Assembly (NCBI GenBank): GCA_017539325.1
Contig: JAFYHD010000078.1
Location: forward strand, 1 to 39,023
Origin: a bacterium
GTDB lineage: Bacteria; Auribacterota; UBA3054
Reading direction: 5' to 3'
Length of the DNA: 39,023 nucleotides
Position numbers and translations under genes: made by a program. The notes beneath the pieces are model-generated. The model did not search any database. It had not been told where the DNA came from and worked only from the letters and a program-made list of their open reading frames with translations. This document shows positions 27,147 to 32,542 of this stretch, piece after piece. The stretch's first letter is position 1, and the number at the start of each line of letters is the position of its first letter.

Positions 27147-27179
27147 ACAAAAAAAGAGCGCCGTTTCGGCGCTCTTTTT
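27147..27179 (-). terminator. Terminator of the FGE/DUF3990 operon
   Basis: A 13-bp stem (27151-27163 with 27167-27179; core GAGCGCCG/CGGCGCTC) with a 3-base loop, followed on the minus strand by TTTTTTTG. It lies about 20 bases after the stop of the tandem FGE-like gene. The A/T flanks make it able to act in both directions, but only minus-strand genes are next to it. Confidence 0.88.
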
Positions 27180-27197: not shown

Positions 27198-29876
27198 TTA
27201 AGGAACCAGGACAACACGTATGCCGTAGATGAAATTGGCGAAGCCGGGGTAGCCTTGACTCTGGAAGGCGTCGCGGCGATGCGCGGAGCGACAGCAGTAG
27301 GCGTAGTCTTGAAAACTCCCGCCCCGAAGGATACGGTATTCTCCGCGTTCTCCGCCTTTCGGATCGATGGCGTCTTCCTTATAGGAACTAAACCAATCCA
27401 GGCACCACTCATACACGTTGCCATGCATATCATAGAGCCCCCAGGCGTTGGGAAGATAAGAGCCAACCTTGGTGTGCTGGGCATATCCGCCTTTACCATC
27501 AAAATAATCACGGCTATAACGGCCTACTTCCGACATTTCTTGACACTCAAACCTATTTGAAAGATCTTTGCCGCTGTTCAAAGCCGTGGCCGTGCCCGCC
27601 CTGCAGGCATACTCCCATTGGGCTTCCGTGGGCAGATCGAAGGTGTTTCCGGCTTTCTTTCTCATCTGTCCCATGAAACTTCGCTCGTCAACTCCGTTGT
27701 TTTTTGGCCAAGCGGAGCCTTTGTTTGCTCCTCTGAGAATATCATAGGAAACATATTCCACCGGTCTCATGTCACCTTTGTACCAGGAAGGATTATCGCC
27801 CATAATATTATCACACTGCCTCTGAGTCACTTCAAACACGCCGATGTAATAGGCTTTGGTGAGCGTGACCTGATGCTGAATTTCGCTTTTTTCTCTGCCC
27901 ACTTCATCTTCGGGGCTTCCCATGATGAAGGTTCCCGGTTCGATCCTTCTGAGCCATAATTCATCCGTGCGGCATTTGTCGTCCGTTGTATCCGGAGCAT
28001 CTGACGACACGCGCATCTTATTGCTCGTGGTATCAAAAACAAGATAGGTTGCCTGCTCCGTCACATCCTCGTATTCGACTCTTAAATCAACTTCGTCCAT
28101 CACATTGGTATAATCCGCGTCAGGGATCCATATTAACTTGTGCTTGCCAACTCCCGCCACTATTCCGCTGGCGCCGTCATATTCAAGTTTGCCCATCTCC
28201 TCCAGCAATTTTTCCTCACCGTTTTTCAATTTTCCATAAAACTTGGTTTGAAAAATAGGCAGGGTGTTTTCTGTCCCCAAGGCAATTTCATATTCAAACT
28301 CTTTTTCAATTTGATCGTCCGGTTCGAAGAACGCGTTTTGAACTATCGCCACACGGAAACCGCCGCTTCTGCTGTATTCGCTGGGGTCGCTGCCGCCTTC
28401 ACGGGAAGCTGAGCGGCAGCTGTCGGCAGCATTGTACCAGCATCCGCCGCGGATAGCACGATACGGTCTCCAGCTCGGTCCATGCGGCTCCGTCGCCGGA
28501 TCCTTAAGATTATTCTGAAACCAGTCCAGGCACCACTCATACACATTGCCATGCATGTCGTAGAGTCCCCAGGCGTTGGGAAGATAAGAGCCGACGGTCG
28601 TGTGAGCGTTTGTGTATCCGCCTTTGCCGTCATCCCGATTGTAACCATAGCGTCCGACTTCCGCCATTTCTTCGCACTCACGCTGATCAGAAAGATCTTT
28701 GCCGCTGTTCAAAGCCGTGGTCGTGCCTGCCCTGCAGGCGTATTCCCACTGTGCTTCGGTTGGAAGATCAAAAGCCAAACCAGTCTTGGCGCGAAGTTTG
28801 CCGAAGAAGGATGTCTCATCCACTTCATAACTGGCAGGCCAACTTGTGCCTTTGTTGTCTCCGCGGAGCATGTCATAGGAAACGTTTTCCACCGGCCGGG
28901 CGCTGCCTTTATAGCCGGATGGGTTTTCACCGGCAATAAGCTCGTATTGCCGCTGCGTCGTTTCAAAAACGGCGATGTAATAGGCTTGCGTAAGCGTAAC
29001 TTCGTGCTGCGTTTCGAAGCTAGTTCTGACAAGTTCATTGGTAGAGGTGCCCATGACAAATGTGCCGGGCTCGATCTTCCGCAAGACAAGTTTCGTGGTC
29101 TTGTACTCTTCTGTCCAGCCGCCTTCAGGCACATCGTCAAGATAACTGATAATATTATTTCCGTCCAAAAGATCGATGACTATATACAATTTGTTTGTGA
29201 CAGAAAAAGGATCTTCATACAAGTTTTCGCCTATGACAGCGGGAGAAACAGCGGCGGGGGAAAATTTATACGCCATGTTGGCCTTGCCTTTGGAATTGGC
29301 GCTAAATTTCACCTGTAAATCTTGCTCTTTGGCAGAATATTTAAAGTTTTCGCCCTTCTTTTCAGGAATGAAAGCATAGGCGCCAACGCTTTCTGAACCG
29401 TTTTCATTGCAAAGGGTGTCAAATAGCGTGACTATTTTTGTTTCAAATTCGGCAAGGTCTTCCTTTTGCAAAGTTCCGGAAGATTTTAAGGTCGCCTTCG
29501 TTGGCTTGATTATTTCACTGCCGACCGCAAAGGAAAAATTCTTGGTGACATCCTTTTCCGCCCAGGAAAATTTTCCGTTCTTTGTCTTTGCGGAAACATT
29601 CTGAGTAAGTGTCTTTTTGCCATAACCATTCTTGTTTTTGTCAAGCTGAACCGGAGCGCAAAGATAATTGGCGAGATCGTTTCGGACGGAGACTTCTGCC
29701 CCTTGGGAAAGTTCCTCCATAGCGGCTTCGCTGAACGTTCCGCTTAATTTAAGCGTAGTCGAACCCTTTACGTAACCGCAGACATTGACGACTTCCTGCG
29801 TAACGACGGTGTCGGCTGACAACGCCCCTACCGTAAGGAAAAGCATGGCAACAGTCAGGAGAACAGCACTTCTCAT
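27198..29876 (-). CDS. Secreted protein with two FGE-sulfatase-like (C-type-lectin-fold) domains
   Basis: 892 residues from ATG 29876, which is preceded by GGGGA and opens directly into a signal peptide (RSAVLLTVAMLFLTVGALSA); the frame extends 7 codons further to a TTG that I reject. Residues about 30-265 and 515-640 are beta-rich with no family I recognise. FGE/SUMF1-like domains lie at about 266-513 and 641-892; each has IEPGTFxMG, FDLPTEAQWEYACRAGT, NAWGLYDMHGNVYEWCLDW and RGG...CRSA. The two share near-identical DNA blocks, so duplication was recent. Compared with human FGE (Cys336/Cys341), only the second Cys is kept; the first is Asn or Asp. Catalytic formylglycine formation is therefore unlikely, and a binding or structural role is more probable. 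It is the last gene of its operon. Confidence 0.9.
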   Translation of the reverse strand: MRSAVLLTVAMLFLTVGALSADTVVTQEVVNVCGYVKGSTTLKLSGTFSEAAMEELSQGAEVSVRNDLANYLCAPVQLDKNKNGYGKKTLTQNVSAKTKNGKFSWAEKDVTKNFSFAVGSEIIKPTKATLKSSGTLQKEDLAEFETKIVTLFDTLCNENGSESVGAYAFIPEKKGENFKYSAKEQDLQVKFSANSKGKANMAYKFSPAAVSPAVIGENLYEDPFSVTNKLYIVIDLLDGNNIISYLDDVPEGGWTEEYKTTKLVLRKIEPGTFVMGTSTNELVRTSFETQHEVTLTQAYYIAVFETTQRQYELIAGENPSGYKGSARPVENVSYDMLRGDNKGTSWPASYEVDETSFFGKLRAKTGLAFDLPTEAQWEYACRAGTTTALNSGKDLSDQRECEEMAEVGRYGYNRDDGKGGYTNAHTTVGSYLPNAWGLYDMHGNVYEWCLDWFQNNLKDPATEPHGPSWRPYRAIRGGCWYNAADSCRSASREGGSDPSEYSRSGGFRVAIVQNAFFEPDDQIEKEFEYEIALGTENTLPIFQTKFYGKLKNGEEKLLEEMGKLEYDGASGIVAGVGKHKLIWIPDADYTNVMDEVDLRVEYEDVTEQATYLVFDTTSNKMRVSSDAPDTTDDKCRTDELWLRRIEPGTFIMGSPEDEVGREKSEIQHQVTLTKAYYIGVFEVTQRQCDNIMGDNPSWYKGDMRPVEYVSYDILRGANKGSAWPKNNGVDERSFMGQMRKKAGNTFDLPTEAQWEYACRAGTATALNSGKDLSNRFECQEMSEVGRYSRDYFDGKGGYAQHTKVGSYLPNAWGLYDMHGNVYEWCLDWFSSYKEDAIDPKGGERGEYRILRGGSFQDYAYCCRSAHRRDAFQSQGYPGFANFIYGIRVVLVP
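27398..27626 (-). repeat. Copy 2 of the FGE-domain DNA repeat
   Basis: Blocks 27398-27466 and 27563-27626 are close copies of 28526-28594 and 28694-28757; in the 64-base block I count 6 differences. They encode the NAWGLYDMHGNVYEWCLDW and LPTEAQWEYACRAGT parts of the two FGE-like domains of the same gene and show a recent internal duplication or gene conversion. Confidence 0.8.
28526..28757 (-). repeat. Copy 1 of the FGE-domain DNA repeat
   Basis: The partner of the repeat at 27398-27626, in the first FGE-like domain. A more diverged third copy lies in the FGE-like gene at 30848-32542 (for example around 31217-31282). Confidence 0.8.
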
Positions 29877-29903: not shown

Positions 29904-30116
29904 TTAAAGGTTGCGGCTATATTCTTCCACAAGATCTTCCGCAAGGTATTCGTCGCTCATGCAGTGAAGATCAGAGGCGCCTTTGTGAAGAAGCATGCTT
30001 TCCTTGGAATGATAGAAGAAATCAAGGGCGGCGGGAAGAGAGATATTAGCTTTTTTGGCAAAAAGCGCGATAACTCTGGCGAATTTTCTCTGCAGTAGGA
30101 TCGGATTGGCTAACAT
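29904..30116 (-). CDS. Small DUF3791-like protein
   Basis: 70 residues, overlapping the DUF3990 gene by 7 bases. The pattern ARVIALFAKKANISLPAAL, then FFYHSKESMLLHKG and SDLHCMSDEYLAEDL, matches my memory of small DUF3791-family proteins found beside DUF3990 genes in gut bacteria. No signal peptide or transmembrane segment. Its function is unknown; by position it may be an antitoxin or chaperone for the DUF3990 protein. The tandem FGE-like gene starts 27 bases downstream. Confidence 0.75.
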   Translation of the reverse strand: MLANPILLQRKFARVIALFAKKANISLPAALDFFYHSKESMLLHKGASDLHCMSDEYLAEDLVEEYSRNL

Positions 30117-30586
30117 ATCGACTCGCTCCCAAGGAAATGAAGATATTTGTCGATCACAGCCTGTGTGCGAAGAGCCAGCTGCATGTTAGGCTGCTGGAGT
30201 CTCAAACGCTTTATGGCCACACTTCTGTCTATCAATCCGTCAAGATAGAGTTCGACAGTGTCAAAGACCTTATCGTTTGCAATGCCGCCCATGACAATGT
30301 CAAAATCAGAGGTGTCCTGCACTTTGCGACATTTAACAACAAAATCCAGCCATTCGTCGGAATAAGCGTTGAAGACCAAAACCTTACATTTTTGAAACGC
30401 TTCGTCATCCAGTTCATATTTTGATATGACGGCATGGTCGCCAACCTGAACAAACCGCTCACACCATTTCTTGGCCTGCTCTATGAGAGAAGTCGTGTAA
30501 AAACCGGGGCCAAAATCCACATTCTTACGAGAATGAAGGATGTCCGGCTTGGACACGGCAATATTCGAAGCATGATAAAGAATCAT
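30110..30586 (-). CDS. DUF3990 family protein, ADP-ribosyltransferase-like
   Basis: 158 residues. The opening ILYHASNIAVSKPDI, then VDFGPGFYTTSLIEQAKKW, DFDIVMGGIANDKVF and TVELYLDG, matches DUF3990 as I recall it. The family is related to the ADP-ribosyltransferase fold; His5 and Tyr30 (in GFYTT) sit where the H-Y residues of that fold would bind NAD. A later catalytic Glu or equivalent cannot be assigned. It overlaps both flanking DUF3791-like genes (4 and 7 bases), which suggests a toxin-antitoxin or regulatory module made as a unit. Target and activity are unknown. No secretion signal is visible, so it probably acts in its own cytoplasm. Confidence 0.82.
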   Translation of the reverse strand: MILYHASNIAVSKPDILHSRKNVDFGPGFYTTSLIEQAKKWCERFVQVGDHAVISKYELDDEAFQKCKVLVFNAYSDEWLDFVVKCRKVQDTSDFDIVMGGIANDKVFDTVELYLDGLIDRSVAIKRLRLQQPNMQLALRTQAVIDKYLHFLGSESIC

Positions 30587-30834
30587 TTCAGAACGCCTCT
30601 TCTTTTCATCAGTTCAATCAGGTCGGTCATGATGTATTCCTTATCTTGAGTGTGCAAAACGTCGTAGCAGGGAAAGATATAGGAATAGAGCAGGTCGCTC
30701 TCAACGGTCAGCATGGTATAAACCCGGGAGGGATCCAACCCAAGCTTTATGGCGAGATTTTCAATACAGAAAACCGCAAACGCCAACGCGTCTTGAGACA
30801 ACTCAAGATTATCTTTGACAGATCCGTTCTGCAT
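30583..30834 (-). CDS. DUF3791 family small protein
   Basis: 83 residues from ATG 30834, preceded by AAGGA at a normal distance; the frame stays open upstream to 31110, but that part lies inside the FGE-like gene and is spurious. The segment LAFAVFCIENLAIKLGLD, then VYTMLTVESDLLYSYIFPCY and DVLHTQDKEYIMTDLIELM, is typical of DUF3791. It lies 13 bases after the FGE-like gene and overlaps the DUF3990 gene by an ATGA. It may be the partner of the ART-like protein. Confidence 0.8.
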   Translation of the reverse strand: MQNGSVKDNLELSQDALAFAVFCIENLAIKLGLDPSRVYTMLTVESDLLYSYIFPCYDVLHTQDKEYIMTDLIELMKRRGVLK

Positions 30835-30847
30835 GAGATTTTCCTTT

Positions 30848-32098
30848 TTACTGTGCCAGGAAGACTCGCACTCCGCAGGCGCTGTAGTCGCCGAAATTGG
30901 GTTTGGCAAAGTCTCTGGTTGCGGAGCGGCAGTCGGCCGCCGGGCTGTAGCATCCTCCGCCTCTGAGCGTGCGGTAAGTTCCCGTTCTCGGTCCTTTTGG
31001 ATCGGTAGCTTCTCCCGTTCCAAGATTCGCCTGGTACCAGTCGAGGCACCATTCCCAAACGTTCCCGTGCATATCGTAAAGGCCGTAATAATTCGGCTTG
31101 TACGTGCCAACGAAATTATGCGCCTGGCTTATAGTCCCTTCCTCGGGATTGCCGCCGCCGTCGTACCAATAGCGGGCCAATTCGTCCAAATCAAGATCCT
31201 TAGTCGTGCTGGTAAGGTCATAGCCGCTGTTCAAGGCCGAATCAGTTATCGCCCTGCAGGCGAATTCCCACTGCGCTTCAGTGGGAAGGTCGAAGCTTAA
31301 ACCGGTTTTGGCGCGGAGGATCCCGAAGAACGAATCCTCGTCGACTTTATTGTTGGCAGGCCAGTTGGCGCCTTTTTCAGCGCCGCGCAGCATATTGTAA
31401 GATACTCTCTCCACCGGACGCGTGACCCCTTTGAACAGAGAAGGATTGGCGCCTGTCACCAGTTCGTACTGCATCTGGGTGACTTCAAAAACGCCTGCGT
31501 AGATGATCGGTGTCAATACTACCTGGTGCCGAACTTCGTTATCATTTTTCCCCAGCTCTTCACTGCGGCTGCCAATCATAAAGACCGCAGGATCGATCTT
31601 CTTCAAAACTAATTTTGTTTTCTTGTACTCCAGCGTCCAACCGCCTTCCGGCTCTTTGTCGAGACCGGTGACTGGGAAACTAGCCGCCTCGGGTCCTCCG
31701 GAAAGGTCTATCACAATGTAAGAGCCGTTTGGCGGAAGCGCCTGCTCGCTGGCCTCTACCTTGATGATCAGATCATAGGTGACTGTTTCATAGAAACTCT
31801 CGTCCGGAGACCATAAAGTCTCGTGCCATCCGGTTCCGACAACAGTTCCGTCGGCGCCTTCTTTGCTTAAGGTCCCTTTTTCAGACAAGTCAAAAAGCTG
31901 TTCCGCATCACCAATGCCGCCAAATAACTTAACATTGAAAGTCGGATTGGCTTGATCGGAGGTAAGATAATAATGAATGATCACGCTTCTGTCGAAAGGC
32001 CAGTTCTGCAAACCAGTTACGCTTTCGACGGCTCCTTCGGCCTGGGTGCTGAAAAAGCCTAGCGAAGCGACTGTCAAGACGGCGATCAGGCCTTTCAT
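30848..32098 (-). other. FGE-like part of the fusion, possible separate gene
   Basis: If translated from ATG 32098 this gives a 416-residue secreted protein with its own signal peptide and one FGE-like domain, matching the plan of the tandem protein at 27198-29876. No strong Shine-Dalgarno sequence precedes it, so translation would rely on coupling with the PEP-CTERM gene in front. Confidence 0.55.
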
Positions 32099-32542
32099 CC
32101 GTTTGCGTAGGAAAAACGCGCCGATAACGGCGATCGCCAAAAGTCCAGCGGGCTCCGGCAATATCGTTATTATGCGGTTATATTCCTTGGTCTCGGTATC
32201 CGTTTTTATCGTTTCTTTGAGGACATATGTGTCATCGGTGGGAAAATCCTTGTATTTTTCATCAGTATAATCCCAACAAAAAGTGCCTCCCCAAGGTTCA
32301 AAGGAAGAAGCGTAAAGTTGGGCCCCTATTTCTGGATCTTCTTGGTCCTCCACGGTAATAACAAGAGACTTCGTTTCACCTTCCGCCAAGGAGTTGCTGT
32401 AGGTAATAGGATCGTCCGGCCTCAAAAGAAGCGGTTCGTCCGTGATCTGCCTTCCGTCAAAATAGACGCCAAAACACCAGCCGTCGGCGAAAGCTGTCAC
32501 GCAGAAAAGCGCCGCGATGGTAAGTACAATTGCTTTTTTCAT
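30848..32542 (-). CDS. In-frame fusion of a PEP-CTERM protein and an FGE-like secreted protein
   Basis: 564 codons. Residues 1-148 are a complete small PEP-CTERM protein: signal peptide (KKAIVLTIAALFCVTAFA), a beta-rich body and the anchor ILPEP, hydrophobic helix, FLRKR (128-148). At Met149 a second signal peptide starts (KGLIAVLTVASLGFFSTQA), followed by a domain like that in the neighbouring tandem FGE protein and an FGE/SUMF1-like domain at about 312-562 with FDLPTEAQWEFACRA, YYGLYDMHGNVWEWCLDW and RGGGCYSPAADCRSA. The first catalytic Cys of FGE is Ser here. Two signal peptides in one protein make no sense; removing one G from CGGATGA (32099-32100) would restore a stop right after LRKR and an ATGA overlap. 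Start ATG 32542 has GGAG about 9 bases upstream. Confidence 0.85.
   Translation of the reverse strand: MKKAIVLTIAALFCVTAFADGWCFGVYFDGRQITDEPLLLRPDDPITYSNSLAEGETKSLVITVEDQEDPEIGAQLYASSFEPWGGTFCWDYTDEKYKDFPTDDTYVLKETIKTDTETKEYNRIITILPEPAGLLAIAVIGAFFLRKRMKGLIAVLTVASLGFFSTQAEGAVESVTGLQNWPFDRSVIIHYYLTSDQANPTFNVKLFGGIGDAEQLFDLSEKGTLSKEGADGTVVGTGWHETLWSPDESFYETVTYDLIIKVEASEQALPPNGSYIVIDLSGGPEAASFPVTGLDKEPEGGWTLEYKKTKLVLKKIDPAVFMIGSRSEELGKNDNEVRHQVVLTPIIYAGVFEVTQMQYELVTGANPSLFKGVTRPVERVSYNMLRGAEKGANWPANNKVDEDSFFGILRAKTGLSFDLPTEAQWEFACRAITDSALNSGYDLTSTTKDLDLDELARYWYDGGGNPEEGTISQAHNFVGTYKPNYYGLYDMHGNVWEWCLDWYQANLGTGEATDPKGPRTGTYRTLRGGGCYSPAADCRSATRDFAKPNFGDYSACGVRVFLAQ

Follow-up and report, generated by a model that had tools for sequence, protein, structure and literature searches.

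The cassette and its family assignments

The window, by which we mean the whole stretch of 39,023 nucleotides that was analysed, corresponds to contig 32 in a draft genome of 1.99 Mb (G000). It carries on its minus strand three small genes, A, B and C, that encode a DUF3791 protein, a DUF3990 protein and a second DUF3791 protein, in that order (Table 1). The reading frames of A and B overlap by 4 nt and those of B and C by 7 nt, and the three genes lie between two others, FGE1 and FGE2, the products of which both match PF03781. The ATG of A follows the stop codon of FGE1 by 13 nt, and the stop codon of C is separated from the ATG of FGE2 by 27 nt (6 nt if FGE2 starts at an alternative TTG). 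An earlier note on this DNA had described three small overlapping DUF3791-DUF3990-DUF3791 genes between FGE-like neighbours, with gaps of 13 and 27 bases, and both the layout and the location are borne out.

Table 1. Coordinates of the cassette, its neighbours and the conserved residues of B in the window
Feature	Position	Strand	Evidence
Gene A, DUF3791 protein, 83 aa, upstream partner	30583..30834	-	PF12668, 69.5 bits; PADLOC PDC-M13A, 9e-31
Gene B, DUF3990 protein, 158 aa, predicted ART-fold enzyme, probable toxin	30110..30586	-	PF13151, 166 bits, full length; PDC-M13B, 5.5e-62
Gene C, second, divergent DUF3791 protein, 70 aa, downstream partner	29904..30116	-	PF12668, 26.7 bits; PDC-M13C, 1.9e-31
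FGE1, upstream gene of an FGE-domain secreted protein, outside the cassette	30848..32542	-	PF03781, 88 bits
FGE2, downstream gene of a secreted protein with two FGE domains, outside the cassette	27198..29876	-	PF03781, 232.5 bits, two stretches
Strong hairpin resembling an intrinsic terminator, after FGE2	27151..27179	-	Matching sequence directly after FGE1 in G007 and G001
Codon of B H5, proposed triad residue 1, strand 1	30572..30574	-	Invariant in 75/75 relatives and in divergent subfamilies
Codon of B Y30, motif D-F-G-x-G-F-Y-T-T, strand 2	30497..30499	-	Invariant in 75/75 relatives and in divergent subfamilies
Codon of B Q136, opens strand 136-139	30179..30181	-	Invariant in 75/75 relatives; secondary structure of the model

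The profile check against PF13151 and PF12668 that the note had proposed gives the expected families. Both small proteins pass the curated PF12668 cut-off of 25 bits, C just above it, and the Pfam search returned no match for either besides DUF3791. In PADLOC the products of A, B and C match PDC-M13A, PDC-M13B and PDC-M13C in gene order. Together, the Pfam and PADLOC matches indicate that the earlier observation was right, and that the cassette of the window is a complete PDC-M13 candidate. PDC systems were reportedly defined in a 2024 preprint by Payne et al., and some of the observations on the cassette may already be found there.

The FGE neighbourhood and movement of the cassette

The FGE1-A-B-C-FGE2 site is common to four species of the genus (G000, G002, G003 and G005, the G005 contig ending within FGE2), and no terminator was found between FGE1 and FGE2. 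Both features speak for a surface-sensing or surface-modifying module in which the cassette works with the FGE proteins. The sites of four sister species, however, are free of the cassette. In G007 and G001, FGE1 (98% and 85% identical to that of the window, respectively) is followed by the terminator-like sequence that stands after FGE2 in the window and then by the next gene; the G004 site has the same layout, without cassette and FGE2, and in G006 FGE1 and FGE2 are adjacent without a cassette between them. No FGE gene was found near the cassette in the 86 loci outside the genus, and FGE genes are so abundant within it (20-46 matches per 2-Mb genome in G001, G004, G006 and G007) that adjacency to one carries little information. 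Inspection by eye revealed no sign of a signal peptide in A, B or C. A surface-sensing role is, hence, strongly disfavoured and in our estimate extremely unlikely, and FGE-linked sensing was rejected on the cassette-free sister sites and the absence of FGE genes elsewhere.

The functional tie to the FGE genes drawn by the earlier note is thus not supported, whereas the other half of its suggestion, a defence module, retains a footing in the existing PDC-M13 defence-candidate label. Likewise, the conserved neighbourhood that it anticipated is present for A-B-C (see below), although the FGE context does not extend beyond four species of a single genus. As judged from the comparison of sites, the cassette and the FGE genes are neighbours by insertion, a reading that removes a misleading functional lead for the window. 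As for expression, a simple sigma-70 scan gave 7 promoter matches against 5.6 expected, which is no signal above chance. As the sole strong terminator lies after FGE2, transcription together with FGE1 is plausible; cotranscription of the cassette with FGE1-FGE2, plausible on the layout of the site, is silent on any shared function.

Several lines of comparison bear on the origin of the insert. At fourfold sites B and C are 100%, and A 97%, identical between the window and G005, compared with 53-74% for the flanking genes, and the identity drops sharply at the FGE1 stop codon. These alignments indicate that the cassette was exchanged between species recently. Its GC content is 45%, against 49-52% for the FGE genes and 55% for the window. 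The B sequences of the genus form a clade among those of Bacillota in the tree, the enclosing branch being supported at 90/91, which is under the star threshold. A second A-B-C cassette, absent from the earlier note, is present in the same genome (G000:C182:24782-25240; L003 9541-10462), where it lies downstream of a pheT-like gene and encodes a B protein with 39% identity. In the tree it groups with the cassette of pBF9343 (100/81), a sign that the two G000 cassettes were acquired separately.

The neighbourhood has further features of its own. FGE1 (30848-32542) is 98% identical to its G007 counterpart but only ∼61% identical to those of the three other cassette-bearing species, and the locus looks like a recombination mosaic. 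At residues ∼130-170 its product contains a PEP-CTERM-like anchor motif (PEPAGLLAIAVIGAFFLRKR) and then a second signal-peptide-like stretch, before the FGE domain; the FGE1 reading frame may represent two fused genes. A diversity-generating retroelement behind the FGE genes was considered and rejected, as no reverse transcriptase was found in the G000 draft genome. Relatives of the window genome come from the ruminant gut, the G003 locus from water buffalo jejunum.

Conservation of the three genes and predicted fold of B

In 84,980 species genomes, at least 544 relatives of B were found. The best 80 of these, together with five viral contigs and the loci of the genus, make up the 97 DUF3990 genes that were examined. 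An A-type DUF3791 gene lies directly upstream and a C-type gene directly downstream in 89 of the 97 loci, mostly with a 4-nt ATGA overlap, a proportion that is not an unbiased frequency because close relatives of the protein from the window are over-represented in the sample. Together with dN/dS values of 0.08-0.25 for the genus pairs with enough substitutions, this recurrence argues that the order of the cassette is not due to chance. Among the best 80 of the at least 544 relatives, Lachnospiraceae and other Clostridia supply most of the hosts, followed by Bacteroidales; single cases come from Spirochaetota, Synergistota, Campylobacterota, Actinomycetota, Planctomycetota, Pseudomonadota and Myxococcota. 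DUF3990 relatives also occur in 70 plasmid records, and in a sample of the phylum in 7 of 44 genomes, all from the genus of the window.

A and C are homologous to one another (hhalign profile comparison: probability 89, E 2.3e-6), and in the loci examined the best-scoring model is that of A for all upstream copies and that of C for all downstream ones. Pairwise distances correlate at 0.868 for A-B, 0.874 for B-C and 0.867 for A-C (n=79), the largest value in 1000 permutations being 0.35; this co-variation is in part the shared inheritance of a linked cassette.

The AlphaFold2 model of B, built with 75 relatives, is of high confidence (pLDDT 94.3, pTM 0.87) and exhibits the ART fold, in agreement with the ADP-ribosyltransferase likeness that the earlier note had read from the sequence and with the placement of DUF3990 in the Pfam ART clan (PMC7955679). 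Its best Foldseek match in the PDB is the RES toxin of the Pseudomonas putida Xre-RES complex (E 2.5e-4), followed by ParT and MbcT; RhsP2 (E 1.1), exotoxin A and PARPs appear at insignificant E-values. The TM-scores of ∼0.5 speak for the ART fold class but say nothing of a substrate, and no solved structure was found that resembles B in sequence. The likeness to RES toxins is one of predicted fold, as Pfam assigns B to DUF3990 and to no RES family.

H5, Y30 and Q136 are retained in DUF3990 subfamilies that have diverged to 24-28% identity, and their order along the fold matches that of the H-Y-E triad in diphtheria-toxin-like ARTs. The canonical H-Y-E or R-S-E triad itself is absent from B, as a glutamine that is invariant in the family replaces the glutamate. 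Tuberculosis necrotizing toxin is an ART-fold NADase that has a glutamine at the place equivalent to Q136. In B, Q136 opens the strand at the place that the catalytic glutamate holds in almost all ARTs, the position being as described for RhsP2 (PMC12340436). Judging from the model, B is probably an NAD-using enzyme, and its substitution could denote a weak transferase, an NAD glycohydrolase or a protein without catalysis. The invariant glutamine, and the presence of two partners rather than one, would also suit a regulatory enzyme that is not toxic, acts by ADP-ribosylation or is otherwise linked to NAD, and has two adaptor subunits. We regard such an enzyme as improbable in view of the mobility, plasmid carriage and patchy distribution of the cassette, the nearness of the fold of B to the toxins of toxin-antitoxin pairs, and the fusion of DUF3990 to an XRE domain in related loci.

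That fusion occurs in L038 (7359-8231) and L037 (690-1562), where an XRE-type helix-turn-helix is joined to a DUF3990 domain that keeps H-Y-Q, and is followed by a PDC-M42B-like partner. PDC-M42-like pairs, in which a longer DUF3990 protein accompanies a partner of 214-216 aa, are also present in the genus of the window (L034 7844-9140; L035 10717-12022).

Gene A is predicted to be all-helical (AlphaFold2, pLDDT 89.7), and a fold search of the PDB with its model gave no significant match. Two natural arrangements bear on how A and C relate to B. On pBF9343, a conjugative plasmid of Bacteroides fragilis (L144 2055-2980), a single protein of 149 aa encoded upstream of DUF3990 is a C-A fusion, its first half matching C (PDC-M13C models, residues 15-74, 3.5e-15) and its second half A (residues 82-148, 8e-17). 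In a Clostridia genome (L092 2032-6646), the cassette lies within pglX of a BREX operon, with BrxC upstream and PglZ downstream. The first protein covers positions 1-884 of the PglX profile and continues in frame into A, whereas the third begins with C and continues in frame into positions 875-1168 of 1174; aligned with the related L080 methyltransferase, the two PglX parts cover 1-530 and 524-834. As L092 is one metagenome-assembled contig, an assembly error is possible, yet both junctions are in frame. The C-A fusion and the PglX fusions suggest, short of proof, that A and C assemble with each other around B, and the two would probably act as a two-part antitoxin.

A BREX pglX holds or adjoins the cassette in at least two independent cases, namely the close relatives L079/L080 and L092. 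Splitting of a host gene is clear on both sides in L092 alone and one-sided in L065, and other close neighbours looked complete where Pfam was run, so that host genes are not generally split. In L065 (3727-5004) it is a serine recombinase, with Resolvase and Recombinase domains, that is fused in frame to gene A. Cassettes are also found within polysaccharide gene clusters (L110, L115 and L145, with UDP-galactopyranose mutase, flippase and glycosyltransferases), and that of the window is likewise downstream of glycosyltransferase genes.

A proposed toxin-antitoxin-like module and its relation to known systems

The reading that we favour, and hold to be reasonably likely, is a mobile toxin-antitoxin-like three-gene module of the PDC-M13 type, in which B would be an ART-fold, NAD-using toxin and A and C together its antitoxin or assembly factor. 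It draws on gene order, predicted fold, conservation, co-variation, the C-A fusion and mobility, from which we infer toxicity, the antitoxin role, the use of NAD, the trigger and the target. The genes are adjacent and coupled, as is typical of type II toxin-antitoxin systems (4- and 7-nt overlaps, conserved order), and the XRE helix-turn-helix fused to DUF3990 suggests the same by analogy, being an arrangement common in toxin-antitoxin pairs. The likeness to a toxin with antitoxins or chaperones that the earlier note had seen in the layout gains from the predicted ART fold, the obligate, co-varying partners and the PDC-M13 candidate label. On the other side, B is flanked by A upstream and by C downstream, which differs from most two-gene type II pairs, Q stands in place of E, the TM-scores are ∼0.5, and the co-variation is partly linked inheritance.

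In the proposed module, A and C would bind B together and hold it inactive, and the overlaps of 4-7 nt would couple translation such that B is made with both partners. Having no strong terminator of its own before the end of FGE2, the module would ride on the transcription of the host operon and persist as a selfish or defensive unit. Were A and C lost or disturbed, for instance in a phage infection or when the DNA is lost, B would be released and could consume NAD or ADP-ribosylate a cell component, and the ensuing arrest of growth would keep the cassette or block phages.

Whether phages enter into it at all separates this module from a purely selfish addiction module, kept because loss of the cassette kills the cell and without phage defence. 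Carriage on a plasmid, with a zeta toxin gene just downstream of the pBF9343 cassette, would fit such a module, as would the scattered presence and recent exchange of the cassette and the placement of most chromosomal copies outside defence islands (nearest neighbours match PglX in 3 of 86 cases). General enrichment of defence genes beside cassettes is weak, the PADLOC tally being mostly generic helix-turn-helix proteins. The recurrent placement in or beside BREX pglX and the listing as a PADLOC candidate argue against addiction alone, which we consider a possible but tentative explanation.

A doubtful extension of the toxin-antitoxin-like module, to which we give little credence, is that A and C are complementary halves that close around B, such that in-frame insertion inside a host gene, as in the BREX pglX of L092, lets the halves of the host protein assemble and the cassette guards the system in which it is embedded. 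If so, silencing of the toxin would be tied to an intact, assembled host protein, and the cassette would be a guard of its host system.

The earlier interpretation of the locus is, overall, partly supported. With 3324 occurrences of PDC-M13 in a survey of 6530 rumen genomes, cassettes of this type are among the commonest candidate defence loci there (PMC13356809), and neither a mechanism nor an experimental paper on DUF3990-DUF3791 or PDC-M13 was found in the literature searched. What is offered here is a model in which an ART-fold toxin with an H-Y-Q triad is paired with a DUF3791 antitoxin of two parts; the pBF9343 C-A fusion and the L092 pglX insertion are natural constructs relevant to it.

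Among known systems, RES-Xre, ParST and MbcTA contain the toxins with the solved folds nearest to B (∼10% identity, TM ∼0.5), but they comprise two genes rather than three and their antitoxins are unrelated to DUF3791. CmdC of CmdTAC is a SecB-like chaperone, whereas A and C are small helical mutual homologues without a Pfam match to a SecB-like chaperone. CmdTAC nonetheless offers the nearest functional analogy, being a three-gene ART module held inactive by two partners and used in defence (PMC11618068). RhsP2, an RNA-modifying ART, shares the fold of B with a triad of R-Y-E as opposed to H-Y-Q (PMC12340436), and DUF3990 serves as a delivered toxin domain in Rhs5-CT of Serratia (PMC4524185); compared with both, B is free-standing and devoid of a delivery domain. 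PDC-M10 and PDC-M42, also PADLOC candidates, contain a DUF3990-like protein of the family of B with other partners and gene numbers. PDC-M13, a phage-defence candidate of PADLOC-DB, is matched by all three window proteins in order and with no difference in the cassette itself, such that only the FGE site is particular to the window.
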